Part shown: piece by piece, positions 8,178 through 57,589 of the stretch
Layout: each line of letters begins with the position of its first letter
Numbering within the stretch: position 1 is the stretch's first letter
NCBI GenBank assembly: GCA_900073065.1
Contig: FJOG01000008.1
Location: forward strand, 2,158 to 66,157
Length of the DNA: 64,000 nucleotides
Origin: Phialocephala subalpina
Lineage: Eukaryota > Ascomycota > Leotiomycetes > Helotiales > Mollisiaceae
Direction: 5' to 3'
Notes under the pieces: generated by a model
Seen by the model: only the letters and a program-made list of their open reading frames with translations
Databases searched by the model: none
Told to the model about the DNA's origin: nothing
Position numbers and translations under genes: made by a program

Positions 8178-8211
8178 AAATATGGGTCAAATTCAATGCC
8201 GCGCGCCTTCG
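8178..8211 (-). repeat. Right terminal inverted repeat of the transposon
   Basis: 34 bp ending in ccttcg, followed by TA at 8212-8213. It is the exact reverse complement of the left end at 6656-6689. Confidence 0.92.
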
Positions 8212-8213
8212 TA

Positions 8214-10999: not shown

Positions 11000-11179
11000 C
11001 TTCTCGACGATGCCTCGTGTGTGCCCTCGTGTGTGCTTTGGCGTCTTCCCGCATGGGCGCCTGCTTGCGGATCTTTCGGACCCACGGCCGTGGCGGCGAC
11101 TGCGGCAGTACTTATAGAATATCGGCCGTGATTACGAATAAGGTGGGGCGCACATTAGTTGGGCGCGAATAAACCCCGA

Positions 11180-12860: not shown

Positions 12861-12897
12861 TTATCCTAGTACTATCATATCTGAATTGCAATTTGGA

Positions 12898-13764
12898 TTA
12901 ATCATAGTCGCCTATATCGGATCTTTTGAGCTCTGTCTTGGCATTTGAAGCCTTGAGGAGAGAATTCTTGATTGCCTCAGCAAAACCCGGTGCACTAGCT
13001 GGGTTCTGTCCAGTGATCAGACGACCACCATGCGCAACAGTGACATGTGCCTTGAACGCGACTTCCGACTTCTCGAATATCGCTCCCATCTTGACCAACT
13101 CTGTCTCGACAAGTACTGGGCATACATCAGTCAACCCGGCCTTATCCTCTTCTTCATTGCTGAACCCCGTAACAGCTGAATTTGCAACCAGGTATTCGCC
13201 ATTCGAGAGCTTGACGTCCTTGAACACAATTACACCGTGGCAAATTGCTGCAACGACCTTGCCAGCCTCATAAACATCTCTAATCAGACTCTTCAGATCG
13301 TTATCCTCAGCTAGGTCAAACAATGCTAGAATAATAATCAGCCAATCTGCTACCACGATAAACCGCCGCGACATGTGACATACGTGCGTGGCCTCCAGGG
13401 CAGCAGAGGGCGTCGAAATCCTTCTCTTTTCCAACAAAATCGCTGATCTTGCCAGTGTTCGTCCATATTTCCTCTCTGTCTCGTAGGAAGGAGTGAGAGA
13501 CTGTATCGGTTGAGGCCGTGTTATTGACGGAGCCTGGGTCCACTTGAGAGTGACCACCCTTCGGCGAGACGACTGTAATATCGGCAATTTCACTCAGGAC
13601 CGTATATGGGTGTGCAAATTCCGCTAAAATTTCGAGTCAGATAATTCTTAATCCCCTTTTGATACGGGTGGAGGCTTACGAAGGTACCATCCTGTTGGCT
13701 TGCCGGTCATCGTGAATTTTGTGGCCGATGAGAGGACCATCAATACCCGGAGTTTTGATGCCAT
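12898..13764 (-). CDS. HSP31-like DJ-1/PfpI family protein (glutathione-independent glyoxalase III / chaperone)
   Basis: Three exons: 13680-13764, 13384-13623 and 12898-13325, 250 residues, the usual length of yeast Hsp31-type proteins. The start reads MASKLRVLMVLSSA. Intron 1 joins WYL to PEFAHPY, giving the conserved GWYLPEFAHPY with the acidic residue of the active site. Intron 2 (GTATGT to CTAG) joins PGGHA to PLFDLAED. The nucleophile elbow AAICHG carries the Cys-His pair. The family converts methylglyoxal to lactate without glutathione and protects against carbonyl and oxidative stress in the cytosol. The frame is intact. The gene directly follows a RIP island, so its expression may be affected by heterochromatin (inference). 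Confidence 0.9.
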
Positions 13765-14280: not shown

Positions 14281-14355
14281 TACGGCCGCTTCCGTGTTAA
14301 CGGCCGCCTGCGGGTTAACGGCCGCCTGCGGGTTTTACGGCCGCCTGCGGGTTTA
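14281..14355. repeat. GC-rich tandem repeat, 18-19-bp unit
   Basis: Three nearly perfect copies of taacggccgcctgcgggt (14298-14315, 14316-14333, 14334-14352), preceded by one degenerate copy at 14281. Each unit contains the palindrome cggccg. The minus-strand reading frame through it would encode an Arg-rich RRRPLTR repeat, but no gene support exists. Confidence 0.85.
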
Positions 14356-14703
14356 CAGCAGCGCATGACGACGGATGAGGAACCCCCTATTGGCGCAGGC
14401 CCGAGTGTACCCATTAGAACAGGGTATAATTGACAAAATAACGGCCAAAACAATCTGCGGGCTTTGTCATAAATCACATTGGCCATAAAGCAGACGCAAT
14501 TACACAATCGAGTGCAGCTCCTTGGATCATTCCCTGAAGTCATGATCCCAAGTCAGAACTTGAGTAATATTAGCGTTTCAAGACTGGCCCGAGAGAGTGC
14601 GCAAGCAATCATATAAGCTACTTGTAATATTTGCAGCTATAGTTCATTGTAGTATGTCCTGGTAATATAGCTCTATAATGAGCGATACAATATATTAACA
14701 GCC

Positions 14704-26338: not shown

Positions 26339-28036
26339 ATGATGTCCAGTCGTTCAAGGATAAGTCTCGCTCTGCGGAGAGCACGAATTGCCCAACCAAT
26401 TCGTCCACAACACCTCCGCCCACTCTCACAAATCCGATGGCAAAGTACAGCCAGCACCGAAGACAGCGAAGGCGTCGCAAAAGGTACAACCGGGACCTCT
26501 AAAATCGTCAAATTCACATCCGAAACATACCCAGAAATCAAACGAGACTCGAGATTCGCAGAGATCACAGAAGAACATGTCAAGCATTTCAAGGAGCTAT
26601 TAGGAAAAGATTCCGCGGTGATTGATGGCGTTACGAAAGATGCTACGGATGACATTGAGCCGTTCAATGGGGATTGGATGAGGAAATATAGGGGGCATAC
26701 AAAGTTAGTGCTGAAGCCTGGGTCGACGGAGGAGGTTAGTAAGGTACTGAAGTACTGCAATGATAATATGCTGGCTGTGGTGCCGCAAGGAGGGAATTCG
26801 GGATTGGTTGGGGGGTCGGTGCCGGTTTTTGATGAGATTGTTATCAATATGAGTCGAATGAACCAGATTCGGTCTTTTGATGAAGTCTCTGGAACACTGG
26901 TTGTGGATGCTGGTTGCATTTTGGAAGTGGCGGATGGATATCTTGGAGAGCGTGGGCATATCTTCCCATTGGATCTTGGTGCGAAGGGGTCTTGCCATAT
27001 TGGAGGCAATGTTGCCACAAATGCTGGAGGATTGAGACTATTACGGTATGGAAGTTTACACGGAAACGTCCTTGGGCTTGAGGCAGTATTGCCAGATGGA
27101 ACCATTGTGGACGACCTATCCAAATTACGGAAGAACAACACCGGATACGACCTCAAGCAATTGTTCATCGGCGCTGAAGGTACGATTGGTATCATCACCG
27201 GCGTCTCGATCATCTGTCCCCAACGTTCGAACGCTATCAACGTTGCATTCTTCGGCCTCGAATCATACGAGAAAGTCCAAGAAGCTTTTAAGGAAGCGAA
27301 GGGACAACTCTCCGAGATTCTCTCCGCTTTCGAACTCATGGACAGCTTCTCGCAAGACCTCGTCCACAATGTCACCAAAAACAAGAGACCATTAGAAAGC
27401 GAGTATCCCTTCTACTGCTTGATCGAAACCAGTGGCTCAAACAGTGAGCACGACAACGAGAAGCTCGAGAAGTTCCTCGAATACGTTATGGAGAAAGAGA
27501 TCGTGCTCGACGGCGTAGTGGCCCAAGACGAGACACAGGTCAAGGCATTATGGGGCTGGAGAGAAGGTATCCCAGAATGTCTAGGACATTGGGGCGGTGT
27601 GTACAAGTACGATCTGTCGATACCAATCAACGAGCTCTATGATCTTGTCGAAGATACACGAAAGAAGATTACCGACGCCGGACTTATTGGAGAAGACGAG
27701 GCACGCCCAGTGGTTGGTGTAGTGGGATATGGACATATGGGTGATTCGAATTTACATCTCAACGTCGCCGTAAAGCGGTACGATAAAAAGGTCGAGAAGG
27801 AATTAGAACCATTTGTTTATGAATGGGTCGCGAAACGAAATGGCAGTATCAGTGCTGAGCATGGGTTGGGGCTGGCGAAGAAGAACTATATCGGGTATAG
27901 CAGGAGTGGTACGATGGTTGCTTTGATGAAACAGATCAAGAACCTTTATGATCCGGTAAGTTTGATGTCCTCAGCTCCAAAATTCCCTGCTAACACATCG
28001 CAGAATGGCATCATGAACCCATACAAGTATATATGA
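26339..28036 (+). CDS. DLD2: D-2-hydroxyglutarate dehydrogenase / D-lactate dehydrogenase (Dld2-type), mitochondrial
   Basis: Exon 1 26339-27955 and exon 2 28004-28036 give 549 residues. The final intron (GTAAGT to CAG) joins NLYDP to [10 protein letters not shown], the conserved family C-terminus. Residues 1-40 are Arg/Ser/Ala-rich without acids, a likely mitochondrial presequence. The FAD-binding PCMH domain shows [20 protein letters not shown] and [18 protein letters not shown]. The cap domain and the substrate/metal-binding [11 protein letters not shown] and [12 protein letters not shown] follow. The flavoenzyme oxidises D-2-hydroxyglutarate (and D-lactate in some members), passing electrons to the respiratory chain or to pyruvate. 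Two ATGs are adjacent (26339, 26342), so the start could be one codon later. Frame intact. Confidence 0.94.
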
Positions 28037-28220
28037 TGGGAGACAGCCTTACAATTCTTGTACATATAGATGGTAGATACAGCACACATCGTCCAGCTGG
28101 ACTTTAAATGAACATCATTGGGTCCAGCGGGGCTCCAATCCAGAGTTCTGCAGCTAAGCGAGAGCTCTCCTTATTCCCCCTTCATATCTACATACGGAAA
28201 TATCCATCTCTCGTATTTGC

Positions 28221-28640
28221 TGTCTCCTCTCTCTCTCTCTNNNNNNNNNNNNNNNNNNNNNNNNNNNNNNNNNNNNNNNNNNNNNNNNNNNNNNNNNNNN
28301 NNNNNNNNNNNNNNNNNNNNNNNNNNNNNNNNNNNNNNNNNNNNNNNNNNNNNNNNNNNNNNNNNNNNNNNNNNNNNNNNNNNNNNNNNNNNNNNNNNNN
28401 NNNNNNNNNNNNNNNNNNNNNNNNNNNNNNNNNNNNNNNNNNNNNNNNNNNNNNNNNNNNNNNNNNNNNNNNNNNNNNNNNNNNNNNNNNNNNNNNNNNN
28501 NNNNNNNNNNNNNNNNNNNNNNNNNNNNNNNNNNNNNNNNNNNNNNNNNNNNNNNNNNNNNNNNNNNNNNNNNNNNNNNNNNNNNNNNNNNNNNNNNNNN
28601 NNNNTATTTTGTTCTGTCTCTCTCTCTCTCTCTCTTCTTT
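28221..28640. repeat. CT microsatellite containing an assembly gap
   Basis: A pyrimidine run ending in (CT)n reaches the unknown bases at 28241, and a second (CT)n run starts soon after them at about 28613. The gap is therefore probably an unresolved long CT microsatellite in the 3' flank of the dehydrogenase gene. Confidence 0.8.
28241..28604. other. Assembly gap, 364 N
   Basis: 364 unspecified bases. True length may differ. Open frames spanning the N run are artefacts. Confidence 0.99.
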
Positions 28641-29229
28641 TTTACTTCTTTTTCTCACTCTATTTTTGTTCAATGTGAAACTTGGTACTTCGTATACAAG
28701 CAACGATCTGCTTGGCATTTTCGTGGCTTATCTGGGTCGGGGCCCTACCTCACGTGGGCGGATGTTGCTATTTAGATCTATATGGATTTGATTGGGTGTG
28801 GGGAAGAAGGGGCAATTGGGCTTGGGTTGAGCCGAGTAGAACTTGAAGATGAGGCGTAAACCAAGGCAGAAGCTTAGCGTGGAGGGAAGGGGTTCGGTTT
28901 TGATGGAGGGGACCGGGTTTTGGGCACGTAGCGGGGAGATTTTATAGCTTCGTGTTGGTAGTTTAGGTCGGGGTTTCTTGCGAGATGTCCATTCTTCTCA
29001 GGGGCAACTTCCTGGGCAGAGATATTGACTTGATGGCTGCAAGCAATGAAAGGGGACGCATAAATGGATCACAAGGTTGAGAGATGCAGCATTAGTTCCA
29101 GAAAATTTCATTTAAGTTGTGATGCATACTCCAGGTGTGCCTTCTGAACCCCCGTCAATACGCCAATGACCCACCAGATTCCCATTATCCATCCCTACGC
29201 CAGATCATTTTTCATATAAGTTCTCAATC
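28641..29229. other. Intergenic, nothing recognised
   Basis: G/T-leaning sequence downstream of the gap with no coding frame or RNA gene recognised. Confidence 0.4.
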
Positions 29230-30855
29230 TCAATTCCAGAACCAACCTTTCTTCTCGCTCTTCTCATCATTCTTGGCCTCGTTGGCCTCCTTCTCCTCTA
29301 CTTCCCGCCAGTCGTATTCCGGCCCATCACGACCAGGGTCTTCTGTATGATGTGTCATAGTGGTCGTTTCACGACCGTCGCCATATTGCTTCCAGACTGT
29401 GACGCAGGTTTCTACTGTACCGTCTTCGTGTGTTGTTCTCTCTGTGGTGGTGCTTGTTGATACTATTCTTTCAGTATCAGATGCGTTCTTGGTGGCTCTC
29501 CCATCTGTGGATTGTGATTTTTCTTCTTTAGAATAGGTCCGGACTTGACTCTCCTGGGCGTCACGAATTTGCCGAGATTCGAGTTCTGCTCGTCGTCTGG
29601 CTTGTTCGATCATCTCTTCCAAGCCTGAACCTTGACTATCCCATTCCGGAAGTCCAGAGAACAAAATATCGAATACTTTGTGCCATTGCTTCTGTTCTGC
29701 GGAGCTTCCTCCCATTAGCCCAAACTTATGCTCAAACATCTCGAGCTCACTCCCCGGGCCTGCGTTGGGGTCATCGATGATTGTAGCAGCCAGTGCCGAC
29801 ATTGGTGATAGCCATGTTACTGGTGTATACGGCACCGATTGCTTTTGTTGCAGTAACCCACGGAAGTACAGATTAGTGATCCATGTCCAGTTATCATATA
29901 CAGTCCGGCCCGCTTTCCAAGGTGACGTCCGAGTCCATGACGACAATATCAAGTCCTCACGTTGATGGCCCACTTTGCTACCCTCTGATGTTTGAATGAG
30001 ATCTTCGAACGCAGAACAGTACGGGAATTGATCACGCGTGCGTGTATCTGGTACTCGAGCATCCGCAGAGAGCTTGAGCGGAGAGTACGGCGAGAATAAC
30101 AGGTAAGGCAAGAGAGAATAATCCGCACGGTAGAGAGGACTTTTCTGGAGAAAACCGAGCGTCAAGTGGCGTGTCGCTTCCAACGGCTCGTGAGTAGCGT
30201 CCCGCAAAGAGAATGAGGAGTTCAATTGTTTGAGATGGTCGAAGAGCTCCAAGGTAACGGGAGAGAACAGCGGTAAGTCTTTGACATTGGGGTCGTTCTG
30301 CTGCTCGGATTCAATATTCTGCTTGCTTCCATCTGAAGATCCCCAATAAGGGCGAAGTTGATCTGGAGTCTGCGGCGCCCGCTGTTGGTATGACTTCTTG
30401 ACCGGTATCTCTACTTCGTCCACCGCATGTTCCGCTCTCAATCGCTCCTGCTTCTCTCTCGCCATCATCTCCTGCTCTGCACTCGCCATCGACAATCTCT
30501 TCTTGTTTTGCTGCTCCAAGAGCATCACCTGCATCTGATAGTCTTTCAAAGTATGCTGGGCGTCCTCGGTATCGGCTGGTTCAGACTTTGTAGAATCCGC
30601 CTCGCTCAATTGCTTTCTCAGCGTTTCCTGCCTCGCCTGCTGTTGATCGCGGCGCCGCAGATCCTCGTCTATATCTGCCCATCTATTGTCATCGCCGGAT
30701 CTTTTCGAAAAGGCAGATGGGAGGCCGATGATTCCCTGGAGCAATGAGCTGACCTGGGAATCAACAGTCCGGCGAAATTTGACGAACGGGTTCTCGGGTT
30801 CGGGGTCGGAAGAAGAGGACTTCGGGTCTCTATCGCGTCCCGAGGACGGATCCAT
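29230..30855 (-). CDS. Conserved fungal protein of unknown function, charged, Ser/Glu-rich
   Basis: A single exon encodes 541 residues from ATG 30855 (MDPSSGRDRD); an in-frame ATG 19 codons upstream is less likely. No catalytic motif recognised. Parts visible: a short N-terminal segment ENPFVKFRRTVDSQVSSLLQ with a hydrophobic LLQGIIGLPSAF stretch, a Gln/Arg/Glu-rich probable coiled coil (about 70-160), a better ordered middle with NWTWITNLYFRGLL and PYTPVTWLSPMS, then a Ser/Thr-rich tail containing TVWKQYGDGRETTTMTHH and ending KKGWFWN. The aromatic tail and VWKQYGDGRE pattern look conserved in filamentous fungi, but I cannot name a function. It is divergent from the gene at 31136. Confidence 0.75.
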   Translation of the reverse strand: MDPSSGRDRDPKSSSSDPEPENPFVKFRRTVDSQVSSLLQGIIGLPSAFSKRSGDDNRWADIDEDLRRRDQQQARQETLRKQLSEADSTKSEPADTEDAQHTLKDYQMQVMLLEQQNKKRLSMASAEQEMMAREKQERLRAEHAVDEVEIPVKKSYQQRAPQTPDQLRPYWGSSDGSKQNIESEQQNDPNVKDLPLFSPVTLELFDHLKQLNSSFSLRDATHEPLEATRHLTLGFLQKSPLYRADYSLLPYLLFSPYSPLKLSADARVPDTRTRDQFPYCSAFEDLIQTSEGSKVGHQREDLILSSWTRTSPWKAGRTVYDNWTWITNLYFRGLLQQKQSVPYTPVTWLSPMSALAATIIDDPNAGPGSELEMFEHKFGLMGGSSAEQKQWHKVFDILFSGLPEWDSQGSGLEEMIEQARRRAELESRQIRDAQESQVRTYSKEEKSQSTDGRATKNASDTERIVSTSTTTERTTHEDGTVETCVTVWKQYGDGRETTTMTHHTEDPGRDGPEYDWREVEEKEANEAKNDEKSEKKGWFWN

Positions 30856-33689: not shown

Positions 33690-34736
33690 ATGTCTTCTTC
33701 CGCCCTTGACCTTAACCAACCAAGACGCCCAGTCAAACGACCTAACCCCGATATCGCGATCCCTTCCATTGAGCTGTTCGTCAAGAAGCGCCGCGTCGAA
33801 GACGAGTCTGGTCATCTACCAAGCCTAAAAAAGAAGGAAGTGGTTCCCAGTGTTGGACTTCATCCTCTGATACATACGTCAGTATATGCCGATTTCAAAT
33901 CGGACGACGAGTTGAGCTTGTTGCTGATGAAGTATCCAAGCCTCCTCGAAACTGGCAAATGGCCCGACCTTGTCATCAAATGCCGCGGCAAGGAGTGGAA
34001 GGTCCACCGCGTTGTCGCTTGTCTTCCCTCGAAAGTGCTCTCCACTATAGTTGATAGTGGCTTTCTTGTAAGTCTCTCTGCTTAAATTTTTCAACTTAGT
34101 ACTTGTCAAGACCATGTAAATATCTGAAATCCCCATCACTGCGTCTGATATGCTGGTGAGATCCAGAAGATTGTCGAGACTGACTTTCAAGCTTCTGTAC
34201 AGGAAGGTACGACAGGTGTCATTGATCTCAGTGCCAGCGAGCCTGACATCGTCGACTGCATGATTCGCTTCCTCTACACCAACGACTACTCCTACACAGA
34301 GAAGGCAGAATCCGTCCCTGTGGCCAACACTGGCTTCTTCCATCGAATCTACTCAGGCGAAACCCTCGTGACCAACGCCAAAGTCTACGTCTTAGCAGAA
34401 TTTCTTGATCTTCCAGCATTGAAGAAGACTGCAGCAGAAAAATTCGCCAGTCATCTCGCCCGGGAAGGTCTCTCGCCTGGCTTCACGGAGAGCTTGCGGA
34501 TTATGTACTCCGAGACTCCAGAAAGTGATCGAGACTTGAAAGACTTGGCTCTCGGCTATGCTCTCCAGCATGCTGCTGGCTTGCTCGAGAGAGAGGACTT
34601 TGCGGCGTTTTGCAAAGACAAGGAGTCAAAGGAGTTCACATTCGAGATGCTCAAAGCGACGACTGAGAAGTCTTCAAAGCCTGTCAGGGCCCGTAAAGGC
34701 ATTCGAAAGTATACTTACCTGTCAAAGCTTGGGTAG
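33690..34736 (+). CDS. BTB/POZ domain protein (array member 1)
   Basis: Two exons, 33690-34067 and 34203-34736, 303 residues. A basic nuclear-signal-like patch (VKKRRVEDES) lies near residue 33. The BTB core begins LLETGKWPDLVIKCRGKEWKVHRVVACLPSKVL and, after the intron, GTTGVIDLSASEPDIVDCMIRFLYTNDYSY, then the conserved YVLAEFLDLPALKKTAAEKF helix. The intron starts GTAAGT at 34068. I chose the acceptor at 34202 (GFL then EGTTG); an acceptor just upstream (AG before ATTGTCGAG) would add 11 residues. Fungal BTB-only proteins often dimerise or act as Cullin-3 adaptors. Unlike members 2 and 5 it lacks a C-terminal zinc ribbon and ends KYTYLSKLG. Confidence 0.85.
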
Positions 34737-35234
34737 AATGGGGAGGAAGTGATTCATTTATCGCTATGCTGCGTTTATGCATGACATTTTCCATCTATGC
34801 AATATCATTTAATCTTACTGCGGTGTTTTGATAAAAGGGAATGATATTCAATCGGGGGAAGGATATTGACACATAGCTGCATCTTCGTCTTTCAAGGATT
34901 ATTCGGAAAATAGAGTGCGTTGCCGTCATTCAAGAACAGACATTCGAGTGTGATCTGATGCTTTCTTACTCTTCTCGGTTGGCCTGCTCGCTTCTCCAAC
35001 CATGACCTTCAGCCTTTGAAGGTGAGTTGCTGAAGTCGCACTACGCAATAAAACCCCCAACTTTCCTCCTTTCCAACCTCAACTCAACCAGAACTGGAGT
35101 GAGCCTGAGACCCACTTTCCCGCTACGACCAACTCTCCCACTGCAATCAGCCTTCTCACCGCCGCGTGTCCCTACATCTGCAGCTCAAGTAAGTACGGAG
35201 AATGGGATCAAAAGTCCTGCGACTATAGGGCCTT
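34737..35234. other. Intergenic, nothing recognised
   Basis: Balanced sequence between the first BTB gene and the AT-rich island. A short open frame at 35027-35266 has no support. Confidence 0.4.
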
Positions 35235-36133
35235 ACAGCCTATCAAGCCCTGTAGGTGGAAATTAGAGCGCTTGGGAGCACTGGTAGGGTTTAAGCCTAT
35301 AAGCTAAACTTTGGCAATTATTATAATATAATTCCAAGGGCTTTAACGAACCAAAAAGTAAAGATATATTTAAATTATTAAATACGAATAAATTCTTGAT
35401 TTCTTTTATCTTTTTTTTTTAATTTAAAAATCTTTTTAATTCAAATTTTAATTTTATTTATTATTTGGTTTTTCTAATATTTTAATTATATTTCTTTTGT
35501 AATTTCCTTTTTATTAAAAGTATTCCTTTTAATAATATTCTTTTTTATTTAGAATTAAATAAATTTAATAATACTAAAATTAAAAGAATATTCTAATTAT
35601 AAAAGTTTTAATTTTTGAAAGAAATTAAGAAATTCTTATTAATAATAAAATAAATAAATCTAATTATTAAATTTTTAATCATTATATTTCTTAAATTATT
35701 TATATTTTATTTTATTATAAATTTATCAAATTCTAAATTTTATTTATATTATATAATTTTTATATAAATTATTAAAATTAGAAAAAATTAGAAAAAGAAT
35801 TATTAAAAAATTCTAATTTATTTTATTTTAAATTAAAATTAAGATTAAAATCAAAATCTTATTTAAAATTAAAATAATAAAAAGAAAAAAGTTTTTATTT
35901 ATAAAAGTTATCAAAATCTAAGGAATATAAATCGTTTAATAGGTAATAATTTATTATAATGATAATAATAATAAAGATAAAGAATAAATAGAGTTTATAA
36001 GGAATTCTAATGATTTTATATCTCATTCTAAGGTGGAATTACCTCTTATAGACTCACAGCCCCCAAAACTACCCCTCCATTTAGACTTGAGACTACTAAG
36101 GGACCCTTGTAGCTACAGGATTTGAGAGCCTGT
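35235..36133. mobile_element. Possible RIP-eroded element (AT island with imperfect inverted ends)
   Basis: The interior (35290-36060) is nearly pure A/T with no coding frame. The balanced flanks carry an imperfect inverted repeat: 35235-35255 (acagcctatcaagccctgtag) against the complement of 36113-36133, matching at 17 of 21 positions by eye. No target duplication was identified, so this is only a candidate element inserted in the BTB array. Confidence 0.4.
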
Positions 36134-36136
36134 GGG

Positions 36137-36300
36137 AATGTCTCCTTAATAAGATGCTCTCACTGACTCATTCCGATCAGGCCAGGCTGCCTAGTAAACC
36201 AATGAGCCATAGGTGACGTGGCTTCATGCCAACATGTGACTCTTTCCCCCATGCATCTCCACCGATTATAACTCTTCAACTGACATCTCTCTCTACCGAA
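36137..36300 (+). repeat. Dispersed repeat, copy B
   Basis: Resembles 4386-4545 along its length, with the same order of gtctccttaataa, cctag.aaaccaatg, ggcttcatgccaacat and ccaccgatta. It lies between the AT island and the ATG of the second BTB gene (59 bp upstream), so it may now form part of that gene's promoter or leader. Confidence 0.65.
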
Positions 36301-36358
36301 GGAACAATAATCTAAATCGAACGCGTTCTAGCCGATATCACCACCGAAGTCACTCGAG

Positions 36359-37206
36359 ATGTCTTCCACCGCGAAGGATAAAGGTCCCATCAGTGGCCTC
36401 GCAGCCGTCTCTGCTTCGTTGGTGCCCTCTTCCCCCGAAACGCGCCTGTACTAACAAATGCCAGGCTCCTTGAGACTGGCCTCTACTCTGATCTGACGAT
36501 CAAGTGTCAGGGTAGAATTTGGAAGGCCCACCGAAATGTCGTCTTCCTTCAAAGCAAGCCTCTCGCTGCTCATCTGTCTGGAGCTTTCAAGGTACCTCTT
36601 CATGTCCCTTTTCAGCGAACGGCAATTGATGTGTTGGTCTTGCAGGAGAGCGAAACCGGCGAAATTGACCTTCCCGATGATGACCCAAAGACCCTTGACC
36701 GCCTCATCCAATTCCTCTACAAGGAGACTTTTGATGACGAGCCCACTTTCACTGGCGTACTAGCTGCGAATCAAGACAGTCGCCTAATTACTTGCACCAA
36801 GGTCTACATCCTGGCTGAAAAATATGACATTCCGGCTTCAAAGGAGTTAGCTAAAAGCAAGTTCGAGAAGGCTATTGCTACGGACTGGAACGACGGTTCC
36901 TTAGCTGCCATTCTGGAGATGATTTACACCGAACTACCTGAGTTTGACTGTGGCCTCAAGGACGTTGCGCTTAAGGCTACTTCTGAGCATATCGAGGAGC
37001 TCGTTGATAGAGGAGAATTTGCTGATGTCTGCAAGCAGAATGGAGAAATTGCATTTGATGTTATCAAGGGCTGCTTGGAGGGTAAGAACTTGACTAAATC
37101 GATGGGTATCTGTCCTCAGTGCGGACAGATTCGTGCTTCCAGTGTTTCCTGGCAATACAACACCAAGAAATTCTACTGTGGTCAGTGTGGTCGGACCTTT
37201 GCCTAG
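36359..37206 (+). CDS. BTB/POZ domain protein with C-terminal zinc ribbon (array member 2)
   Basis: Three exons: 36359-36417, 36465-36591 and 36646-37206, 248 residues. Intron 1 has a classical branch point (CTAAC) before CAG. The BTB core reads LLETGLYSDLTIKCQGRIWKAHRNVV, then ESETGEIDLPDDDPKTLDRLIQFLY and VYILAEKYDIPASKELA. The C-terminus carries CPQCGQ and, about 20 residues later, CGQCGR, a compact Cys4 zinc ribbon. Exon boundaries match members 3 and 4, showing common descent. The BTB fold should mediate oligomerisation or Cullin-3 binding; the ribbon may bind nucleic acid or protein. Intact frame. A dispersed repeat lies just upstream. Confidence 0.88.
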
Positions 37207-46791: not shown

Positions 46792-48087
46792 TTGCGAGGT
46801 GGATGCGAAGGGCGCACTATAGCGGCCAAAAGCGACGTTTTAAATGCCACGAACGCCGACGGCTCAAAGAAGTACCTTAACTTCACCCTCAGCATAACCT
46901 CCTTCCCCACGAAGATCCTGTTCAACACCACGGGCAAGCTCAGTGCCAAGCCGCGAGCCATCGGTGTTGAGTGCCTGTTCGGCCAGAGCATGTATGCCGC
47001 AGATCCTCGCTACAACGCCAGCAACCCAGGAAAGAAGATGCAAGCATTCGCCAGGAACAAAGTCATCGTCGCCAGTGGTACATTCAATACACCACAACTC
47101 CTAAAACTCAGCGGCATCAGACCAAAAGCAGAACTCACAAAGTTCAATATCTCCGTCCTCGTCGACCCCAGGTGTGGGAAACCAGAGTAGGTCAAATTTC
47201 GCATTTCCTTTGAAGAGACATTCAGAGCCGAGCTTTTCGAGAGCACTGCGGACTCACCTCCTCTCGGCTCCTCGACTCCGCAAGCCACACTTCAATTCGC
47301 ATACTGATTCATCTATAGTGCAAGACAACACCAAATTCGGATCCATTGCCCAAGCCGCCACAGACTTCGGCGACATTTCCCAAGTCTGCACATACGGGGC
47401 ATCAGGCGACCCCTGCCTCGCGGCCTGGCACCAAGGCAAAGGACCCTACACCGACGGCCCACTCGATTCCCTAATGTACAAAACCTCCAACGCAGCCATG
47501 AACGAACGCGGCATCTTCTTTGGTATCCCAGGCGCGAACCCATTCCGTGGCTACTACCCCTCCGACACAGTCAACACGATCTACAACGACCCACCCAGCA
47601 CCTTCGACTGGTCCATGATCAAATCCATCCCACTGGCCGTCTCGGCCCCTGAATCTCGTCACTTCGAACCCCCGCGATGTTCCCGACGTCAAATTCCGCT
47701 TCTTTGAAGACGCAGACGCAGATAAAGACATCTCCGCCATCGCCGAAGCCGTCAAATTCAGACGCAAAATCTTCAACAATCTACCGAAAGAAATGCAGCC
47801 GTGGAAAGAAGTGCTTCCTTGTGACGGCACCACGACCTGTGATATGAAGACGGTGATTAAGGAGCAGGCGTGGAGTCATCACGCTACGAGCTCTGCACAG
47901 ATTGGAGCGGATAATGATCCGATGGCTGTACTTGATGGTAAGTTTAAGGTGCGCGGAGTGAGTGGGTTTGAGGGTTGTGGATGCGAGTGCGTTTCCGAGG
48001 ACACCGGGTGGTTTTCCTGTTATTCCGACGTTCATGTTGGGGATGAAGGCTAGTGAGAGTATATTAAAGTGGGTGATGGAGGCTTAG
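46792..48087 (+). pseudogene. Decayed GMC oxidoreductase (glucose/choline oxidase-like), 5' truncated
   Basis: The fragment starts mid-protein at RTIAAKSDVLNATNADGSKKY and lacks the N-terminal FAD-binding GxGxxG region. Recognisable blocks are VIVASGTFNTPQLLKLSGI (second GMC signature), FFEDADADKD, EQAWSHHATSSAQIG (catalytic His region) and, in another frame, DASAFPRTPGGFPVIPTFMLGMKASESI at the C-terminus. Frame changes are needed near 47172, 47665 and 47968 (an extra T before GAGGGTTGTGG). With a missing start and three shifts it cannot be expressed intact. It sits tail-to-tail against the UstYa-like gene and head-to-head with the ankyrin gene, whose start (46683) may mark the truncation point. 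Confidence 0.82.
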
Positions 48088-48239: not shown

Positions 48240-49425
48240 TCAGGCTTTCCTTTCTCCCTCCCCGCCCCCCTTCTTATCTTCCTTTGCTTTCTCCTCCTTC
48301 TCTTTCTGCGCTTTCATCTCGTGCTCATGCTTTAATAACTCTTTGATCCCTTCACTCGGCGGTATCTGCCTCACCCCCTCCGGCTTTTTCATCTATTTGA
48401 CAACTTCATCAGCAATCCAAATCACGTCAATCTCGTCTGCAGTGGGGTTCTACTCACCACAACCCATTTATCAATATCCACGCCCTCCCTCTTCCTCCAC
48501 TCCACCAACGCATCAAAATCCCTACACTGATGATTGATATTAAAATCCGGAAACGGATACCCCTGAGTCTCCATCCAATTCAAGGTATAGAGGTCGGTGT
48601 TACTAGTACACATCAAATTCTGCGCCAACACATCCACACAATGATTCAAATGCACAAACCAGAGATCCGGATGACGTATTGTATCCGTCGAATAATTGTA
48701 ATACTCAGGGTAGATTAGTTTAAGAAGTTGGTTTAGGCAATGCATTTGATGAAAAACGTCAACTTGCGCCATATAGGCATCCCCTCCTAATCCCCAATAC
48801 CCGTCATCAAATTTGGCGACGATTCCGGGGTCTTTCCCTAGTTTTAAGACGTCTTCTCGCGAAATTGGGATGGTGCGAAGGAGTTCTAGGTCATCCCACC
48901 AGGCGTCCGTCTCGGGGTTTGGGTGTTGGCAGGCGTAATGTGGGGAGGGGCCCGGGTAAAGGGCTGCATTCATGAGCTTGACCGAGGTTTTGATGTCTAG
49001 GCGGTCGAGTATGGGCGCTGGAGGCAGGAGTGAGTGAGGGAAGGGAGATTTGGAGGAGATTGGGACGGGGTAGAGGGAAGGGGGAGAGGGACGAACAGTA
49101 GAACGAGGTTGCTTTCAAGAGGGCGTTTCGGCCGTGTGGAGCGTTGAGAAACCATGTTAGGAAGAGTGTTATCGAGGTAATGAAGAAGATTGCGTTCAGG
49201 ATGGGGAGGAGGATGAAGTGCTGCTGATATTTTCGTGGGATAGATTCATGTTTTGCGGTAGGGTGGTAAGGTTGTTGCAGAGATTCTGAGAATGAGTTGT
49301 CTTGATGGAGGGGTTTTGATTCTTGGTCATCAAGAGCTTGGTATTTTTGAGATTTTGAGAACCATATCTTGGAAACTCTTAGGCGTAAAGATGGTTTAGA
49401 GAGAGACCGAGAGGAGGAGAGACAT
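48240..49425 (-). CDS. UstYa-family (DUF3328) oxidase-like membrane protein
   Basis: Exons 48240-48392, 48458-49017 and 49097-49367 fit by phase. The start is uncertain: ATG 49425 spliced through a 40-bp intron (MSLLLS) gives about 333 residues, but the frame is also open upstream to about 49487 without an ATG. A single membrane segment (FILLPILNAIFFITSITLFLTWFL) is followed by FYSPILDRLDI and the two diagnostic HxxHC motifs (DVFHQMHCLNQL and VHLNHCVDVL), with YWGLGGDAYMAQ before the first. The tail (KPEGVRQIPPSEGIKELL) is Lys/Glu-rich. UstYa-type proteins act in the secretory pathway and perform oxidative cyclisation or other modification in dikaritin and other toxin pathways. A repeat peptide gene lies divergently 1.2 kb away. 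Confidence 0.85.
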
Positions 49426-49487
49426 TGAGATGTTGGTCTACTGCACGAAGTCGCGGTCACGTTGATGGAGCTCCAGATGAAAAGCAA

Positions 49488-50624
49488 GTAGGAGATGACC
49501 TTCGGCGTCTCGCAGTCACCACCCTATCATTTCCTTAAAAGATCAACAAATGTGGAACATCTTGCGAGGAAGGGTGCGAGTCCTTCGACATGTAGACCTT
49601 CCATTTTAGTCTTGGTCGGGGAAGAGTAGTCTGTCACGAGCAACACTACGCGAAAAGGGGGAATAAAATTGAGCATCAATAAGTATAGCGTGAGGGAACC
49701 GAGACCGGAGGAGTTGTAGTCGGTTCGCGATATCATGCTGGAGGGGCAGGTGCAGACCAGATAATGGATGATCGGCAGTTGGAATTAATCCGAACCAAAA
49801 ATCGTACCTGCCTCGGAATGCAAATATATGCAGGTTTGCTGCACGAGTGCTGATTGACAGCCGGAAGCTTCGGTTTGAATAAGTTTTGATCGCACCTTCT
49901 GATTTGAGAATGATAAATGTCAGAAGGATACAAGTGAAAGGTGCATGAGGTGGGGTAATGGAGACACTGTAGGTTCCTCATTCTTGACCAACGCTAGAAA
50001 TTGTCCAAGGAGATGATATGTTACAGAGAGAAAAAGTCGAATTGCGGTGTAAAAGGGTAATTTAGGGGAGAGGGTAGCTACTTCATGCTGAATCACCGTA
50101 TCGCGAAGTTTTATTCGAACTTTGGTGGGGTCATCCGTCGATCATTCCCGATGGCGTGGGCAATCAAGCTTTCAGCCACCCGCCTGGGCGACTTGTACGC
50201 TAGTTTCTGCGTGACGCCAAAGACAATGGCGTATCATTCGTCCGCTCGGTATAAAGCGCCGTTCAAAAATCCACACCACCGCTTTCGTAGGGAGAGATCT
50301 TCAAGTTAATCGCCGGCATCTGCATCCTTCTCCCGATGGCAACCCATCAACATGACTTCTTCAAGGTTTGGGCGCTTTCGAGGCCAGACTTGTGATACAC
50401 TAGACGATTTTGATGACATTCGGGTGCAGATTCGTCATATAGCTTCGTATAGCAGGCGGAAGAGGCCCTCAATAGAAAAGAGAGCGACAAATTCGAGCTC
50501 CATTCAAAGCGTATAAGTCATTACCACACCATATATTTTAACCGGAAGCCATCTTCAATTCGCCATTAACTCCTCAGATAGCACCTGATACCAATCGTCC
50601 ACCATTCTTCCTAACATCAATATC
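49488..50624. promoter_or_regulatory. Divergent intergenic region between the UstYa-like gene and the repeat-peptide gene
   Basis: About 1.1 kb with no convincing gene. A TATA-like tcggtataaag lies near 50247. Being flanked by two outward-facing genes, it probably holds both promoters, which would allow co-regulation; no regulator-binding site was identified. Confidence 0.4.
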
Positions 50625-50945
50625 ATGAAGTTCCAAATCCAAATTTTGGGTCTCCTTGCAGCCCTTCCATGCATCCTATCCGCCCCGGCAGCTGCACCAG
50701 AAGGTAAGTCTTCTTCTGTCGAAATAAGCAAGAGCATCACTGACAACTGTAGCCAACGTTGCGCGTGCACCGGAAGGTGATGATACCTTATATGAACCAC
50801 TCGACTATGTCTACGTAAGACCTCAGCCATCTTTCAGTCGCACACTTTCGTGCCGTCAAGGAACGTACCTGAAGACGACAATACTTTGTACGAGCCATTA
50901 GATTATGTCTATGAAGGCAAAACATCGAATGTCAAGCGCGAGTAA
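50625..50945 (+). CDS. Small secreted repeat peptide, candidate dikaritin-type RiPP precursor
   Basis: ATG at 50625 opens a signal peptide (MKFQIQILGLLAALPCILSAP) followed by an APE stretch. An intron at 50704-50752 (GTAAGT, branch CTGAC, TAG) leads to a first repeat ending TLYEPLDYVY at 50814. A second copy, again TLYEPLDYVY, continues to EGKTSNVKRE and stops at 50943-50945. To read both, 23 bases (50815-50837, GTAAGA to TTTCAG) must be skipped, an unusually short intron or else a frameshift; unspliced, the first frame stops after 20 or so unrelated codons. Repeats are preceded by single Arg residues, and a KR pair (KEX2 site) occurs only near the end. The pattern (signal peptide, Tyr-rich repeats, nearby UstYa homologue) fits dikaritin precursors. 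About 80 residues in all. Confidence 0.68.
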
Positions 50946-52082
50946 GGATATTCTCTTGGCAAGGCGGGTCAAGCGAGGGGGTGAAATAGGGGCTCGCTTA
51001 GGAGAACTGCAATGCATGAACATCGAGACGAAGAACTTTGCTATGGTATTTTTCCGGGATTTCTAGTGCTCGTTTTGCGTAGTCTTGAGTTGCGAATCGT
51101 TGCTGCGCACCTTCTCTTGCTCAATCCTGCTTTGCATCTAAACACAAAGGCAAGTGTGCTGTTCAGCAAATCGATCCCCAAGCTCAACGGGTACTCAAGG
51201 ACACGGGCTAGGTTACGATACTACATATAACACTCTGACAAGAAGATCAGTCATTGGTTGTCTTTCCTTTGAAACTCTGCGCCGAGAAAGTCCGGGCGAG
51301 GCTAGGGAGCAACGTGATGTCTACCAAAGCGGAATGCTTAGAGGCTCCGCCCCGCTCCGCCCATCTTTCCGTGTCATATGCATTAAAAGTCTCATTCAAC
51401 AGAAGACTTGCAATATCTTAGTTGCGCATCGAGCTGAGAACCTCTACTATTTGGCAAGGCTGAGGCGAGGCTAAAGCTGGCAAGAACCCGGTTTCGTTGG
51501 CCTCACGTGATCGGACCCTCCCGCTCCATGACGCCGGGACGCCCATGATCTAGTGATGACTGGTATATGTCACCCGAAAGAAATTTCGAACACCTTACAA
51601 AATCTGACACAACTTCCCAACTCGACAAGCTTTCTAATTGAGACAAAACTCCCCAAGGCGTTTCTCAACCAATATTTCTCTAGTAAGTGTAGCCCAGCAC
51701 TCTTTTCTACGGTAATTTCGGCGTTTTAGTTATTGCTTATCCTTACGATTCATCTGGAGATTGTCTGGGGACCGCTCAATCCACTCCTGCAGGGTTACAC
51801 GATATGCTTCATTGAGAGATGTGGCTGAGTCTCGTGATACAAGGCAGCCAGTGGCTGAGGTGCAGCATGCAGGCCACATTGAGGCTCACGTTACACGATC
51901 GTGTTTGTTTCTCCAGCCTTGTCTCACAATTTCGCCGTAGGCAACAACTTCATTATTCCTTTACATGTTCAACTTATTATTGGCAACTTCTACATGTATA
52001 CGATTGCTTACTCCTCGGACTCGAAGTAACAAAGCCCCACTTGCCTACTTTTAGACTTATTTCGGTCCCTCTCTGTGACAGA
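50946..52082. other. Intergenic, nothing recognised
   Basis: No further precursor-like repeat, tailoring enzyme, RNA gene or transposon was recognised between the repeat peptide and the next BTB gene. Confidence 0.45.
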
Positions 52083-53542
52083 ATGGCTTTCTTCAGCTCC
52101 GGCTCCAACCTTCCAGTCATCACTCCATCGGCAGCTGAGAAAGCAAGCAATTCCTCTCCGAATCCCATCGCGCCAGAAAGCCATATGGCAGAGGCTCTAT
52201 CCTCGTGAGTCCAAACCCTAATCTCATGTTTTGTATATGCTAACTTGAACTTCAAAGCATTTTTGCCAGTGGCAAGTACTCTGTATGTGAGATGCCATTG
52301 ATTAATAACCCCCTTTCTGATTTGAAGTAGGATCTTGTTGTCAAGTGTAAAGGTCAACAATGGCAAGTGCACAAAGCTGTTGTGTGCATGCTATCGAAGC
52401 CTATTGGTGCAGCTTTTGATCGGGGTTTCATGGTGAGTGGAAAGCTCTACTGCGAGGAATCTGTGAGCTATTCTGACGGGACTAAGGAAGCTAGCACGGG
52501 TGAGATTGACTTAGAAGATGACGATCCCAGAATCGTTCAGTTGATGTTGGAATACATGTACAAAGGCAACTTGAACATTCAAATACCAATTGCAAGGATG
52601 TCGCCTCCCGCCCATACTGTGGAAGGAAACGCCTCTCAATACGGGTTTCCGCCGGCACAACAATCGACGGTACTTCAACCACTTTCTGGAACCACTACCT
52701 TCCCAAACTTGATGGCATACCAGATGAGGATCAATAACCCTTCGAATATATATTCAAACCCTAGTTCCATGACATCGGTATACCAGCCTTACAGTTATAT
52801 GGCGTACCCGCCACCTTACACTTCTGCATCAACGATGATGATGTACCCGACGCCTGTCAACGCTATTTCGAGTTCACACACGGGTTCTGCGACTGTGGGA
52901 CTTGTACAGCCGAATGCCGCAAATAACGCTCTCGGCTCACCCTCGAATCCAATCGTTGTAGGCAACACCAGCTTGAATGACATATCCAATGGAAATGTTC
53001 GTCTTGGACCAGCCTCCTCCCCTGCCGCACAGCCTTCTACGGATGACTTGTCTAGAGGTCTGATTACGGCCGCAGAGGTGTACATTTTAGCGGACAAATA
53101 TGATGTTCAAGGCCTGAAAGTGCTTGCGTGCGACAAGTACAAGGCCCTATGTGAATACTACTGGAACAATGAGCACTTTATCGAAAGTTTAAGCATAATC
53201 TTCGATAACACACCAGATACCAACGAGACAGACATACTTCGAGTAGTTACACTCGATACAGCCTCCCTACATACGAAAGAGCTGCTTAGAAAGGAGACCT
53301 TCCAGGAGCTATGCCAATGTCGTGGGGACATTGCAACTGCAGTTCTTATGGCATCTGTCGAGATACCGTCTTCGCCGAGCAACAATAATGGAAGGAGTTT
53401 CTCGAGTGGAGATGGAGCGATGGGATCTGGGTCGGTAACTCACTTCTTCTGCCCCGTGGATGCTTCCCACAACTTTCAGATCTGGGCAATGCCAGACCAG
53501 TATTACTGTCATCAATGCGGGGTTATTCGAAGGTTGAATTGA
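52083..53542 (+). CDS. BTB/POZ protein with a long internal insertion and C-terminal zinc ribbon (distal paralogue)
   Basis: Four exons: 52083-52204, 52258-52282 (25 bases), 52331-52432 and 52487-53542, 434 residues. The BTB core reads IFASGKYSDLVVKCKGQQWQVHKAVV, then EASTGEIDLEDDDPRIVQLMLEYMYKG (to about residue 110). A low-complexity Ser/Pro/Tyr/Asn/Met insertion follows (about 112-270) before the fold resumes at AAEVYILADKYDVQGLK. The C-terminus has FFCPVDASH and YYCHQCGVI, a Cys-based ribbon resembling that of the member at 36359. The last intron is 54 bases with no stop, so an intron-retained form with 18 more residues is possible. It is a paralogue of the 33.7-39.4 kb array. Confidence 0.87.
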
Positions 53543-53953
53543 AAGTGATGGAATGAAGGTTCGAACCGTTCGGGAGTCGGAAAATTGTATAACGGTTGAA
53601 ATTATTTTTCGTTCCATTCCCTTCGGAATGTTGGGTCTTATCTAAGACTACAAGCACTCTGGACCCAGACACTCTCTAAATTGACAGACCTTTCTCTTTG
53701 ACGTAATAAAGGAAACTGAATAACTTCACGCGGCTGGTTTCAGCAATCGGTACAGTACAATGCGCCAATCAACTGAAATCCCAATGGCCAGAAGTTCAGG
53801 CCTCTTCTTGGCTCTATTATTTGTTGCGATTCGCGCTCTTTCCCCAGAATTGCGCGCATCAAAAGTCGACGGCCTGCGCTCCAAAGTTCCCCCAGCTCGT
53901 CTAGTATCCGCCCAATCCCAAGCTCTACGACAACGAATACCATTTCTCCAAAC
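53543..53953. other. Intergenic, nothing firm
   Basis: 3' flank of the BTB gene. Overlapping open frames on both strands (53740-54068) show no domain. Confidence 0.35.
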
Positions 53954-54304
53954 ATGCCTAGCTTATCGACTTCTCATACCATATCAAGTTCCACTACAAG
54001 GAGTATTAATTATCAAATCACCTCTCTTTCTTCCGGGTTCAGCACACTATCGAGCGTTACGAGAGTGAGCACAATACCTCGAAGTATACAAGTCTCTACT
54101 TCCAGCGCATCAACGGCTTATATTAGTACAAGCACAGCCAACTTAAATACACCTATATCGTCGAGTTTCCATACACCATCGAGCCCTTCGGGAAAGAGTA
54201 CAACATCTCAAAATACGCTTCTTTCGTCGGCTTCCTCCACAGTAACAGCAAATCTCACATGGAAATTTTCTCGTGGCATTTTCCATTTCCGTCTCTGCAC
54301 TTGA
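53954..54304 (+). pseudogene. Possible fragment of a Ser/Thr-rich surface protein
   Basis: A 116-codon open frame is strongly Ser/Thr-rich, as in fungal mucin-like or GPI-anchored wall proteins. No signal peptide in frame, no domain and no splice partners were found. It ends just before a repeat-element region. Similar composition recurs at 63278-63871. Could be chance. Confidence 0.25.
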
Positions 54305-54463
54305 GCTGCTGCTGCTTTAGCCTGAGCTATGGGTGATCAAGCTTGAGCCGAGGGTGAGCCTTCCTAAGCACGGCCTGAGCACATGCTAATTAAGTCTAAG
54401 CATACATCAAAGAGCTATTTTAGTATCCACTGGGGCTCATTTTGACTCCCTTGAGGCCCAGTT

Positions 54464-55257
54464 GTAAGAGTTGGGGCCATAGCTCGTGGACCCCCCTAAG
54501 CGAGAATATCAATATTTCAAAATTTTACAATTTCATGAACCTTTTATAAAAATTCTTCAATTTAAGCTCTCGTATAAAGAAGTAAAGAGTAATACTTAGG
54601 ATTTAATTATATTTTCAGATTCATAATTTAAAATCGAAATTTAAATGAATTTATATAAGAGTATTAAAATTATATTTTATATTATATTTAATTATAATTA
54701 TTTTAATTAATTATTAATACTTTTGAGTCTTTATAAAGATATATTAATTTTTAAGTAAATATTTAGTATAAAATTAATTTTGACATTAAAATATAAATTT
54801 CTTATTTTATTATAAGCTTTTGAAAAGAGATTAAAAATTGAATTTTTAGTATATTTCGCTTAAAAACTCTATTTTTATACTTGCTTAAAACTTTTATATT
54901 AATACAAAAAATAAATATTTTAATTTCAAATTTGGATATATATTAAAACTTTACTTATTATTTTATATCTTTTTTTAAAAAATAAGAAATTATTCATTAT
55001 TCATTATAATAATCGGTTTCAAATAATATAAATCTTTAAAATTTTAATATTTTCATATAAATTCGCTTAAATTTAAGCTTTGACTTATAAATTTGAAAAT
55101 ATAATTAAAGCTTATTTATTATTTTCTATTTCTTTATATTCATCTTTAAGTTTAAAAGGAACTATCAGAATTTGGAAGAGTTATAAAATATTGAAAACAA
55201 AAGGGTTTTTGATATTCTCGCTTAGGGGGGTCCACGAGCTGTGGCCCTAACTCTTAC
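54464..55257. mobile_element. RIP-eroded DNA element with ~40-bp terminal inverted repeats
   Basis: The left end starts GTAAGAGTTGGGGCC and contains GCTCGTGGACCCCCC, then taagcgagaatatcaa. The right end (55215-55257) is its reverse complement with only two mismatches over about 40 bases. The interior is nearly pure A/T with no coding frame, consistent with RIP. At 794 bp it is too short for a full transposase and may be a MITE-like or internally deleted element. Target duplication is not clear (short T-rich flanks). Confidence 0.75.
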
Positions 55258-57589
55258 TTTCCTTGTTTTACAGGATCCTATTTTGGCTCCCCCTCTGACA
55301 GAGATTTCTCTGGGGCCGATTTTGGATCTAAACTTGCTTATAGGCACGTGGCAAAGATCTCAGCCTCCTTGATGTTTACAAAGGCGATGATAACATGAAG
55401 TTTGATAGTTTTGAATTGATTTTTATTTTTATTTTTTATATCCTTTGGAGGATCGTATTAGTACCTATCTCCTTGACTAGTGCGATGCCCACCAGCGATC
55501 TTTCTTTGATCACGCCAGGTGGCATATTTTCTAAATCCTTTATCTCTCCATCTAATTCTCTGTGCCACATATCCCCAGTTTTCCTGTATGGAAAGATCGC
55601 CTGTGGCAAGTTCTGAATCTCGTAATGCCACTGGGAATTGGCATGCCCCTGAAGCCAAGGCTGCATGAATTTTACCTCTAATTGACTACCGTTGATCTTC
55701 CATCGCCTTCTGACTTGATCCTATTTGTGAAGCTCCTGCCAATACGATCGTAGCTTGCATGGAGTTACAGGTCTTTCCCAATGCTACTAACTCTTAGTGA
55801 GACTCCTGCTGGACATGTCCTTGCCATTGCATGAATCTCAAATTCTGTTTGGCCCCTACCTGGCTGATCCTGCGCCCTTTTATCAGTGGATGGTGCCGTT
55901 GGTGTGATTCTACCTTCCAGGATTTAGAGGAGTCTCCAGTGCCACTAGCCTTCGTGTGAATTCTTCTGGACATGGTCTTGCCGTCGCATGAATCTCTACC
56001 TCTGTTTGACTTTGACCTCGACACAGGACGCTGGCGACCTTTGTGCCGCTGATATGATTCTACCTTGCTAGGATTCATAAGAACTACACGATAGCACTAG
56101 CCCCTGATAGGACTTCTAAGAAGTGCTATCAATGCGGTACGAATCTCCACTCTTTATTCCATGTCTACTAGCTGAGCCTTTACTCTCTTCGCTCGTCCTA
56201 CTTGCACCAAACATTAGTGTGACTCCCCCCTAACGCGGCATTACTACAGCAGAATATCCATTATTCATGCAAGAGGGGTGGAGATCTCAGCTGAGGTTGA
56301 TTCCATGTTTAGGAAAGTGTTAAGTAGTTCCAGTGGCTCTGGGAAAATCATGCAAACCGTTACGAAGCAGTGATCACATCATTTGCTGGAATTGAACAGC
56401 CAAAAGGGGTAGATGTTCAGCTAAGTAGGGGCCAAACGGAGATAGATATCCATGTATTAGTAATGTAGCGTCCTGGTGGAACTACGATGAGGCATAATCC
56501 GATACAAGCATTATTGTATCAATAGTGGCTCCAAAAGTATACTAGTAGGAAGGAAATTATGACTCCCCTTGCCATGTGACCTCTGCAGCCGTGTTTGGGG
56601 TAAAAAAAGAAGCAAATCTGCCTTGCTGAGGACTTGCATAAATATCTCTAAGCCAGTGATCTTCCCAAGTATGACTCTCCTTTCATTGTGATCTCTCGAC
56701 GGCTGATACAAAAGTGTCAGCTGTGCATCGTTCCGATTCTTGGTAATATGTACCGTCGCCCCACACATATCATGATAATCACAAGCATATCAATCCTGAG
56801 CTGTGGCGTTTGAAGCTAGTCGTACCCCTTCCATGCGATCTCTTCGATGTATGAAGCTAGCTAAGATGAGACACACTGAATGATGAAGATGATCTAGCCA
56901 AACTAGGAGGCGGCAGCAGCGGTACGCTTAGCATAATGTGAGACACCGAGGCAATTCAGCTCAAAGAGCGGCCGAGAGCATTGTAACTCTCAAGTCCGCG
57001 TTACTAAAAGCATGTGAGCGACGATGCTTGGCAGTCGAAATACTCCCGTGCAACATTTTGCCTTGAAAATTCACAAGTGCAGAACGCGAGCACATCCACG
57101 GCAAGCGACTGCCGAGCTGGCTTAGTGCTACAATACTGATGTTTCGAAGCGAAGAACGTTTGTCGCAAGTAGGACAGCTCTAGGAACATCAGAAGTTGAA
57201 GTACAGAGCTTTGAAATCTGAAAGATTATTAAGGAACAGCAAAGCATATCCGTTGCATAAAACGGGCTGAGACATTTTATTGATCTTTTCCAAATTCCTT
57301 TCCTTCTTGGTAAGGACTCAATGGGAAACTAAAGGGAATAAGAAAGGTTGAGGAAGTCGCACAAGGCAAGTAGAATAAGAAAGAGTCCTCACTTGTACAA
57401 GCAGCGTTTTGTACAAGTAAACTATAGACTTGAGAGTAAAATATATAGATGTTCTAAAGCTGCGACCAAATGAGAATGATATTTTAACTTGTATGGCCAT
57501 GCTCTCATATGGAGAAATTATCTTCCTTAAGCTCAAGCATATTTTCTCTCGACCTTTCTCTCATTCCTAAGAACTCCAAGTATAGTTTT
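55258..57589. other. Gene-poor region with degenerate repeats
   Basis: No gene recognised in 2.3 kb. An imperfect direct repeat is visible at 55796-56107, and weaker relatives of a tgactccccttgccatg-like motif recur near 56557, 56688 and 56825. Short open frames (55395-55616, 56511-56768, 57004-57189) have no support. Confidence 0.45.
55796..56107. repeat. Imperfect tandem duplication, ~157-bp unit
   Basis: Two units share ctggacatg, cttgcc, gcatgaatctc, tctgtttg, gattctacctt, aggatt and cactagcc in the same order: unit 1 at about 55796-55952 and unit 2 at about 55953-56107. A weaker third unit may follow (cggtacgaatctccac near 56140). Confidence 0.6.

Follow-up and report, generated by a model that had tools for sequence, protein, structure and literature searches.

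The closest described systems to the locus reported here are the dikaritins (ustiloxin, phomopsin and asperipin-2a) and the Kex2-processed repeat proteins (KEPs) that have a DUF3328 neighbour. A survey of 1,461 strains collected 7,878 KEPs; in the portion of that paper considered here, 22% of the KEPs had a DUF3328 neighbour within 15 genes, most often the next gene, and Phialocephala was placed under KEP types G-2, G-3 and G-9, with G-3 occurring mostly with DUF3328 neighbours (PMC7329392). The presence of two HxxHC motifs has been used as a criterion for UstYa proteins, with single-core precursors allowed, in the relevant section of PMC12048977, and nine such clusters are given for Venturia inaequalis in the corresponding section of PMC9632046. 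For P. subalpina UAMH 11012, a genome obtained by 454 sequencing at 25x, a mean intron length of 80.2 bases is given in the main text of the genome description, which makes no mention of DUF3328, ustiloxin, dikaritin, Kex2 or PAC_06227 (PMC5148876).

We analyzed a stretch of 64,000 nucleotides from P. subalpina (contig FJOG01000008.1, positions 2,158 to 66,157), hereafter the window, in which a first-pass annotation had proposed a new and very small dikaritin-type locus. The dikaritin-type reading of the gene pair found there is well supported by sequence comparison. Our preferred reading, to which we assign a probability of roughly 0.57, is that it is a decaying dikaritin-type RiPP locus with an apparently undescribed precursor family.

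Results

The UstYa gene and its start

The UstYa/DUF3328 oxidase gene is located on the minus strand at 48240..49425, where our working model encodes 333 aa (exons 49425-49408, 49367-49097, 49017-48458 and 48392-48240). The catalytic part lies in the open frame 48422..49114 on the same strand, which matched PF11807 with 172 bits (E 1.9e-50) and carries two HxxHC motifs, HQMHC and HLNHC. Across 25 aligned sequences, the window ORF plus 24 relatives, the first motif never varies and the second hardly does. A hydrophobic segment was recognized by eye in the exon preceding this frame, and the predicted model of P0004, the closest relative of the oxidase, shows a transmembrane-length helix at residues 45-75. 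The oxidase had been described beforehand as a DUF3328 protein with two HxxHC motifs and a membrane segment, and this description holds. P0004 had no sequence relative in the PDB (E up to 1) and its model (pLDDT 78.9) gave a best fold match at E 3.9, so that the mechanism is not readable from structure.

Among the best 120 of 140 UstYa matches, the nearest relatives came from a Mollisiaceae sp. (77% identity), Claussenomyces (56%) and Drepanopeziza (70% over 62% of the length), and P. subalpina was named in none of these 120, many of which carry no organism label. The two closest full-length relatives, P0004 and P0005, start with MWFS, and the window has WFS at this place without the ATG. The start of P0009, MKLLW, falls near that position, and P0007 and P0008 start otherwise. 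Because no in-frame ATG was found at the conserved start or upstream in that open frame, the working model begins with a mini-exon followed by a 40-base intron, both of which are hypothetical; the donor of this intron, GTCTCT, is weak and unusual by the standards of fungal donors. Past the first exon, the oxidase contains no internal stop and reads through GT-AG introns. This open remainder, together with the 77% identity to the closest relative listed, counts against an old decay, and since the remainder of the oxidase reads open we regard the decay as recent. A 5' mini-exon or a non-ATG start could serve the oxidase, which counts against decay.

Layout of the locus and the surrounding window

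The peptide gene has its ATG at 50625 on the plus strand and is divergent from the UstYa gene at a distance of 1.2 kb, as the first-pass annotation had it. The same annotation had found no second UstY gene, and a six-frame search of the whole contig of the window (E up to 0.001) likewise gave no second UstYa match. Overlap filtering left 66 window ORFs of at least 100 aa, and 46 of these were scanned with Pfam for further cluster genes. The domains found were BTB, ankyrin, GMC fragments, NACHT-like, helicase, proteasome, FAD oxidase, transcription factor and GST, among others. None of these 46 ORFs matched a tyrosinase, methyltransferase, P450, peptidase or transporter domain.

A remnant of a GMC oxidoreductase gene adjoins the locus at 46792-48053 on the plus strand. 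It matches part of GMC_oxred_C and only the end of GMC_oxred_N (profile positions 150-206 of 218), and its N-terminal part seems to be missing where an open frame of the opposite strand lies. The window also contains AT-rich stretches (1-3000, 11000-13000, 27000-30000, 34000-37000 and 53000-56000) between more GC-balanced blocks, with a GC content of 13% at 1001-3000; perhaps these reflect repeat-induced mutation.

The peptide gene and its two cores

Exon 1 of the precursor (50625..50703, plus strand) encodes the signal-like N-terminus MKFQIQILGLLAALPCILSAPAAAPE, which is hydrophobic, ends in SAP and resembles those of P0002 and P0125 (all judged by eye). It is followed by a 49-base intron 1 (50704..50752, GTAAGT..CTGTAG), which agrees with the annotated gene PAC_06227 and whose position appears to be shared with P0002 and P0125, as judged from read-through residues in the predicted proteins. 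Exon 2 (50753..50814) carries core copy 1, TLYEPLDYVY, at 50785-50814. Core copy 2 and the C-terminal part occupy 50883..50945, with the core at 50883-50912 and EGKTSNVKRE plus the stop codon at 50913-50945. Copy 2 starts 98 bases after copy 1 in a different reading frame. Just 5' of copy 2 we noticed an apparent spacer relic, VKER (50855..50866), followed shortly by PEDDN leading into the core, which can be compared with NVKERAPEEDD of P0003; core 1, the relic and core 2 lie in three different frames. The protein PAC_06227 (P0001, 101 aa) is the letter-for-letter translation of 50625-50703, 50753-50814 and 50902-51066, and its last exon (50902..51066) results from joining 50814 to 50902, which skips copy 2, so that only copy 1 is included. 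Of the short gene with a signal peptide and two TLYEPLDYVY copies that had been proposed, both copies and the signal-like N-terminus are thus real, but the copies do not share a frame.

Between the two copies, 8 of 30 bases are different, all of them silently; the probability that eight random substitutions would all be silent is about 7e-6, with a transition bias assumed. TLYEPLDYVY is also the sole identical decapeptide pair at a spacing of 30-300 bases on the plus strand of the window. Its minus strand contains two identical decapeptide pairs, one of them with 4 differences in low-complexity sequence. The silent-only differences and the lack of a comparable pair on the plus strand suggest that a chance repetition is very unlikely and that the peptide was likely under selection in the past.

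We then considered splice models that would place both cores in one chain. Among 5,888 GT-AG models with one or two introns, 33 did so, all of which need an intron no longer than 38 bases; if the published intron 1 is kept, the intron that joins the cores has 20, 23 or 38 bases. From the splice models of at least 50 aa, the 40 longest were taken out of 2,232 (introns of at least 20 bases) and out of 1,097 (introns of at least 40 bases). Genome-wide, an 82-aa model and P0125 matched only this locus (E up to 10), revealing no paralogue of the peptide.

Two relatives of the peptide carry several dibasic-bounded cores

When relatives were sought among 5.8 billion proteins, the initial query gave three matches among 5 candidates (P0001-P0003), and a hybrid query gave four among 886 (P0124, P0001, P0125 and P0002). 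Beyond this gene, the motif LYxPLDYVY was seen in four public sequences, namely P0002, P0003, P0124 and P0125. P0124 and P0125 are Kex2-type repeat precursors, each with three cores in one translated chain and dibasic sites at the boundaries, compared with one core in PAC_06227 and two cores in different frames in the window. In P0124 the cores are followed by EDKRLNVKEKR, EDKRLNVKEKKR and EGKRLNVKRE, respectively, and the C-terminal end is EGKRLNVKREVESKE; the corresponding end is EGKRLNVKEST in P0003 and EGKTSNVKRE-stop in the window. In P0125, KR-DxD stands before each core, and EGKK or GEKK and LDTKK come after it. P0003 has one core with EGKRLNVKER before and EGKR after it, and P0002 has one core preceded, as in the window, by VAR. 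Across ten copies (two from the window, one each from P0002 and P0003 and three each from P0124 and P0125, leaving out P0001, which repeats window copy 1), 8 of 9 core positions are invariant, including all three tyrosines, giving the consensus LY(E/Q/I)PLDYVY.

Pfam gave no match for P0124, P0001 or P0002 and only lines below the cut-off for P0125 and P0003, and NCBIfam gave none for P0124, P0125 or P0004 and a single chance-level line of 12.7 bits for P0001. P0124 bears the precomputed label PF27581.1, although the Pfam copy that we scanned gave no match for it; our guess is that PF27581.1 may represent repeat precursors of this kind in a more recent model. A text search of the literature, covering main texts, did not find the core strings in print, the lone match being a plant meiosis paper. 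To our knowledge, LY(E/Q/I)PLDYVY is unlike the cores of ustiloxin, phomopsin and asperipin-2a. The earlier view that the core differs from published ones agrees with this literature search, but the core is found in the four public sequences named above.

Kex2-type sites around the window cores

Core 1 is preceded by a single R (VARAPEGDD) and not by a dibasic pair, where P0125 has NKR. P0002 shares the VAR, so the missing KR before the core may be a usual feature of this group. Following copy 2, the window reads EGKT, whereas in P0003, P0124 and P0125 residues 3-4 past the core form a dibasic pair. No dibasic pair lies within 7 residues of either window core, in contrast to the Kex2-bounded cores of the relatives. 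The first-pass annotation had counted only one KR pair. A single KR is indeed present in the frame of copy 2, at residues 8-9 past the core and one residue before the stop codon, but PAC_06227 in addition has RR and KR 21 and 24 residues past its core, so that some processing is conceivable.

These sites bear on whether the locus could still work as a minimal dikaritin locus. In that case, translation would cover one or both cores, either in the PAC_06227 form or with a very short intron. Release would occur at the single R, at dibasic sites further away or through a different protease, and a UstYa made from a 5' mini-exon or a non-ATG start would do the crosslinking. Consistent with this, both cores are conserved at the protein level, the annotated PAC_06227 has its downstream RR and KR, an intron of 20, 23 or 38 bases would put the cores in one chain, the HxxHC motifs are kept and the divergent layout is as in other pairs. 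We nevertheless consider it unlikely, given that the dibasic pair next to the relatives' cores is missing, the copies lie in different frames, the conserved oxidase start has no in-frame ATG and the mini-exon would depend on a weak donor. Introns of 38 bases or less are also unlikely against an average of 80 bases (PMC5148876).

The same defects might be sequencing or assembly errors in an intact gene pair. Sequencing by 454 at 25x makes an error at the locus possible, and PAC_06227, which agrees with the window, may derive from the same data and provides no independent check. Homopolymer runs are the usual weak point of 454 reads; the differences at the locus are several and none is in such a run, which makes this explanation very improbable.

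Other UstYa neighbourhoods in the genome

The genome (68.1 Mb, 119 contigs) contains 56 UstYa exon matches, which we grouped into 33 neighbourhoods: that of the window, 20 that were analyzed and 12 that were left out. Nineteen of the 20 spanned 9,901 bases and one, at a contig end, 7,337. The repeat tests covered single open frames of at least 40 aa, and the control for the repeat scan was this window only. The first scan yielded 37 repeat ORFs, none of them from the window, and a stricter script flagged 8 of the 20 neighbourhoods (L013, L020, L022, L023, L024, L025, L030 and L031). Two more, L015 and L017, were added by eye from the first scan, so that repeat-precursor-like ORFs were present in 10 of the 20. 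Of these ten, L020 is the least certain, being alanine/glycine-rich and of low complexity, and the ORF flagged in L025 by the stricter script is antisense to the likely precursor from the first scan. L016, with a two-copy ORF and one dibasic run, was left out of the ten. The window locus, with its cores in different frames, was flagged by neither scan; the stricter scan of the whole window gave one match, an arginine-rich stretch at 14283-14552 that looks spurious.

The precursor-like ORFs lie 0.6-2.3 kb from the nearest UstYa match, and in 8 of the 10 neighbourhoods (9 of 11 with the window included) a UstYa match within 3 kb is divergent. This test used the 25 of the 56 matches that lie on the contigs concerned, with distances taken to exon matches and not to gene starts.

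The individual ORFs differ in their repeat units. L022 has a seven-copy ORF at 7925-8272 (C112:1343424-1343771; ADADTATLYKTNKR) with a divergent UstYa match at 1.8 kb, and L013 a three-copy ORF at 6986-7252 (C43:1614485-1614751; DVGIYSYYAxPRKDKDKR) with a divergent match at 1.5 kb. Divergent UstYa matches also accompany five GMSF(H/Y)K(E/A) repeats in L031 (2962-3459), four LEYNDNNAVE(D)KR repeats in L024 (4844-5113) and GFAYK repeats in L025 (3323-3568). The ORF of L030 (3328-3549) is in tandem to its UstYa match and has EEAINWIKR repeats, with Trp instead of Tyr. FWYKTGRSIE units in L015 (4984-5295) and ADLSALVDDELYASYDK units in L023 (9742-9900, cut by the end of the stretch) are likewise near a UstYa match, as are ORFs with di-histidine units in L017 (7242-8006; REPHHTEAQIAAKKAKAGARD) and L020 (7774-8235; RRHHKGAGG). 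The latter two can be likened, by description only, to the di-histidine type G-3, which includes Phialocephala in the portion of the survey considered here (PMC7329392).

With UstYa genes as numerous as this, the window pair might be chance neighbours, the UstYa serving another function and the peptide being an uncyclised small secreted protein. UstYa relatives occur in many fungi where no relative of the peptide was found, and a figure of 22% of KEPs with a DUF3328 neighbour within 15 genes, as given in the portion considered here, means that most have none (PMC7329392). We regard chance as improbable, however, because half of the other neighbourhoods analyzed have precursor-like repeat ORFs at short distance, mostly divergent, and because the core has three invariant tyrosines and the relatives have dibasic-bounded repeats. 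The relatives' repeats and the recurrence of the same layout are what makes the dikaritin-type reading well supported. Thus, the dikaritin class assigned in the first-pass annotation stands, while its working, very small locus is the less likely form, given the missing Kex2 sites, the out-of-frame copy 2 and the absent oxidase ATG.

Discussion

Taken together, these data lead us to favour a decaying dikaritin-type locus. In related fungi, several LYxPLDYVY cores are found in one predicted secreted precursor. If ustiloxin, asperipin and phomopsin are a guide, these cores would be freed by Kex2 at the flanking dibasic sites, and the tyrosines would then be crosslinked by a UstYa oxidase. P. subalpina retains the divergent pair and both cores, but the Kex2 sites adjacent to the cores are missing, core 2 lies out of frame and the oxidase has no normal start. 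These three defects suggest that the pathway is probably off, or yields at most a poorly processed single-core product. The retained HxxHC residues, the preserved cores and the divergent layout seen in other pairs count for this reading. The adjoining GMC oxidoreductase, which appears truncated at its N-terminus, counts for degeneration, as do the omission of core 2 from PAC_06227 and the lack of a match named P. subalpina among the best 120 UstYa matches. From sequence comparison we infer processing, cyclisation, the action of this UstYa on this peptide and the loss of function. A fuller proposal, in which LY(E/Q/I)PLDYVY marks a dikaritin family not yet described, possibly with a new multi-ring scaffold, intact in some fungi and decaying in P. 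subalpina, is tentative, and we hold it at somewhat less than an even chance.

If true, the loss of one RiPP among many would be traceable within one endophyte species complex. As a product source the window copy is less useful than as an illustration of how a pathway decays; the relatives' precursors, with an apparently undescribed core motif, are the candidates for cyclisation. The pairing of many repeat-precursor-like ORFs with UstYa in this genome also offers a reservoir of candidate cyclic peptides from a widespread endophyte of tree roots.

Compared with the dikaritins ustiloxin, phomopsin and asperipin-2a, the window has comparable elements: a UstYa oxidase carrying two HxxHC motifs and, next to it, a precursor gene with a signal-like N-terminus and two Tyr-containing core copies in its DNA. 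The dibasic-bounded cores of dikaritins are matched by P0124 and P0125, whereas the window copy has no dibasic pair next to a core, and the 46 of 66 window ORFs scanned differ from dikaritin clusters in having no tyrosinase, methyltransferase, P450, peptidase or transporter domain. Against its closest relatives, the window is without the boundaries that enclose the three cores of P0124 and P0125, but the core is common to all and the N-terminus is similar in P0125. Finally, the window pair belongs to the same gene class and neighbourhood as the KEPs with DUF3328 neighbours described in the portion of the survey considered here (PMC7329392). PAC_06227 differs from these KEPs in having one core, suggesting that it would probably escape a search for tandem repeats among annotated proteins.
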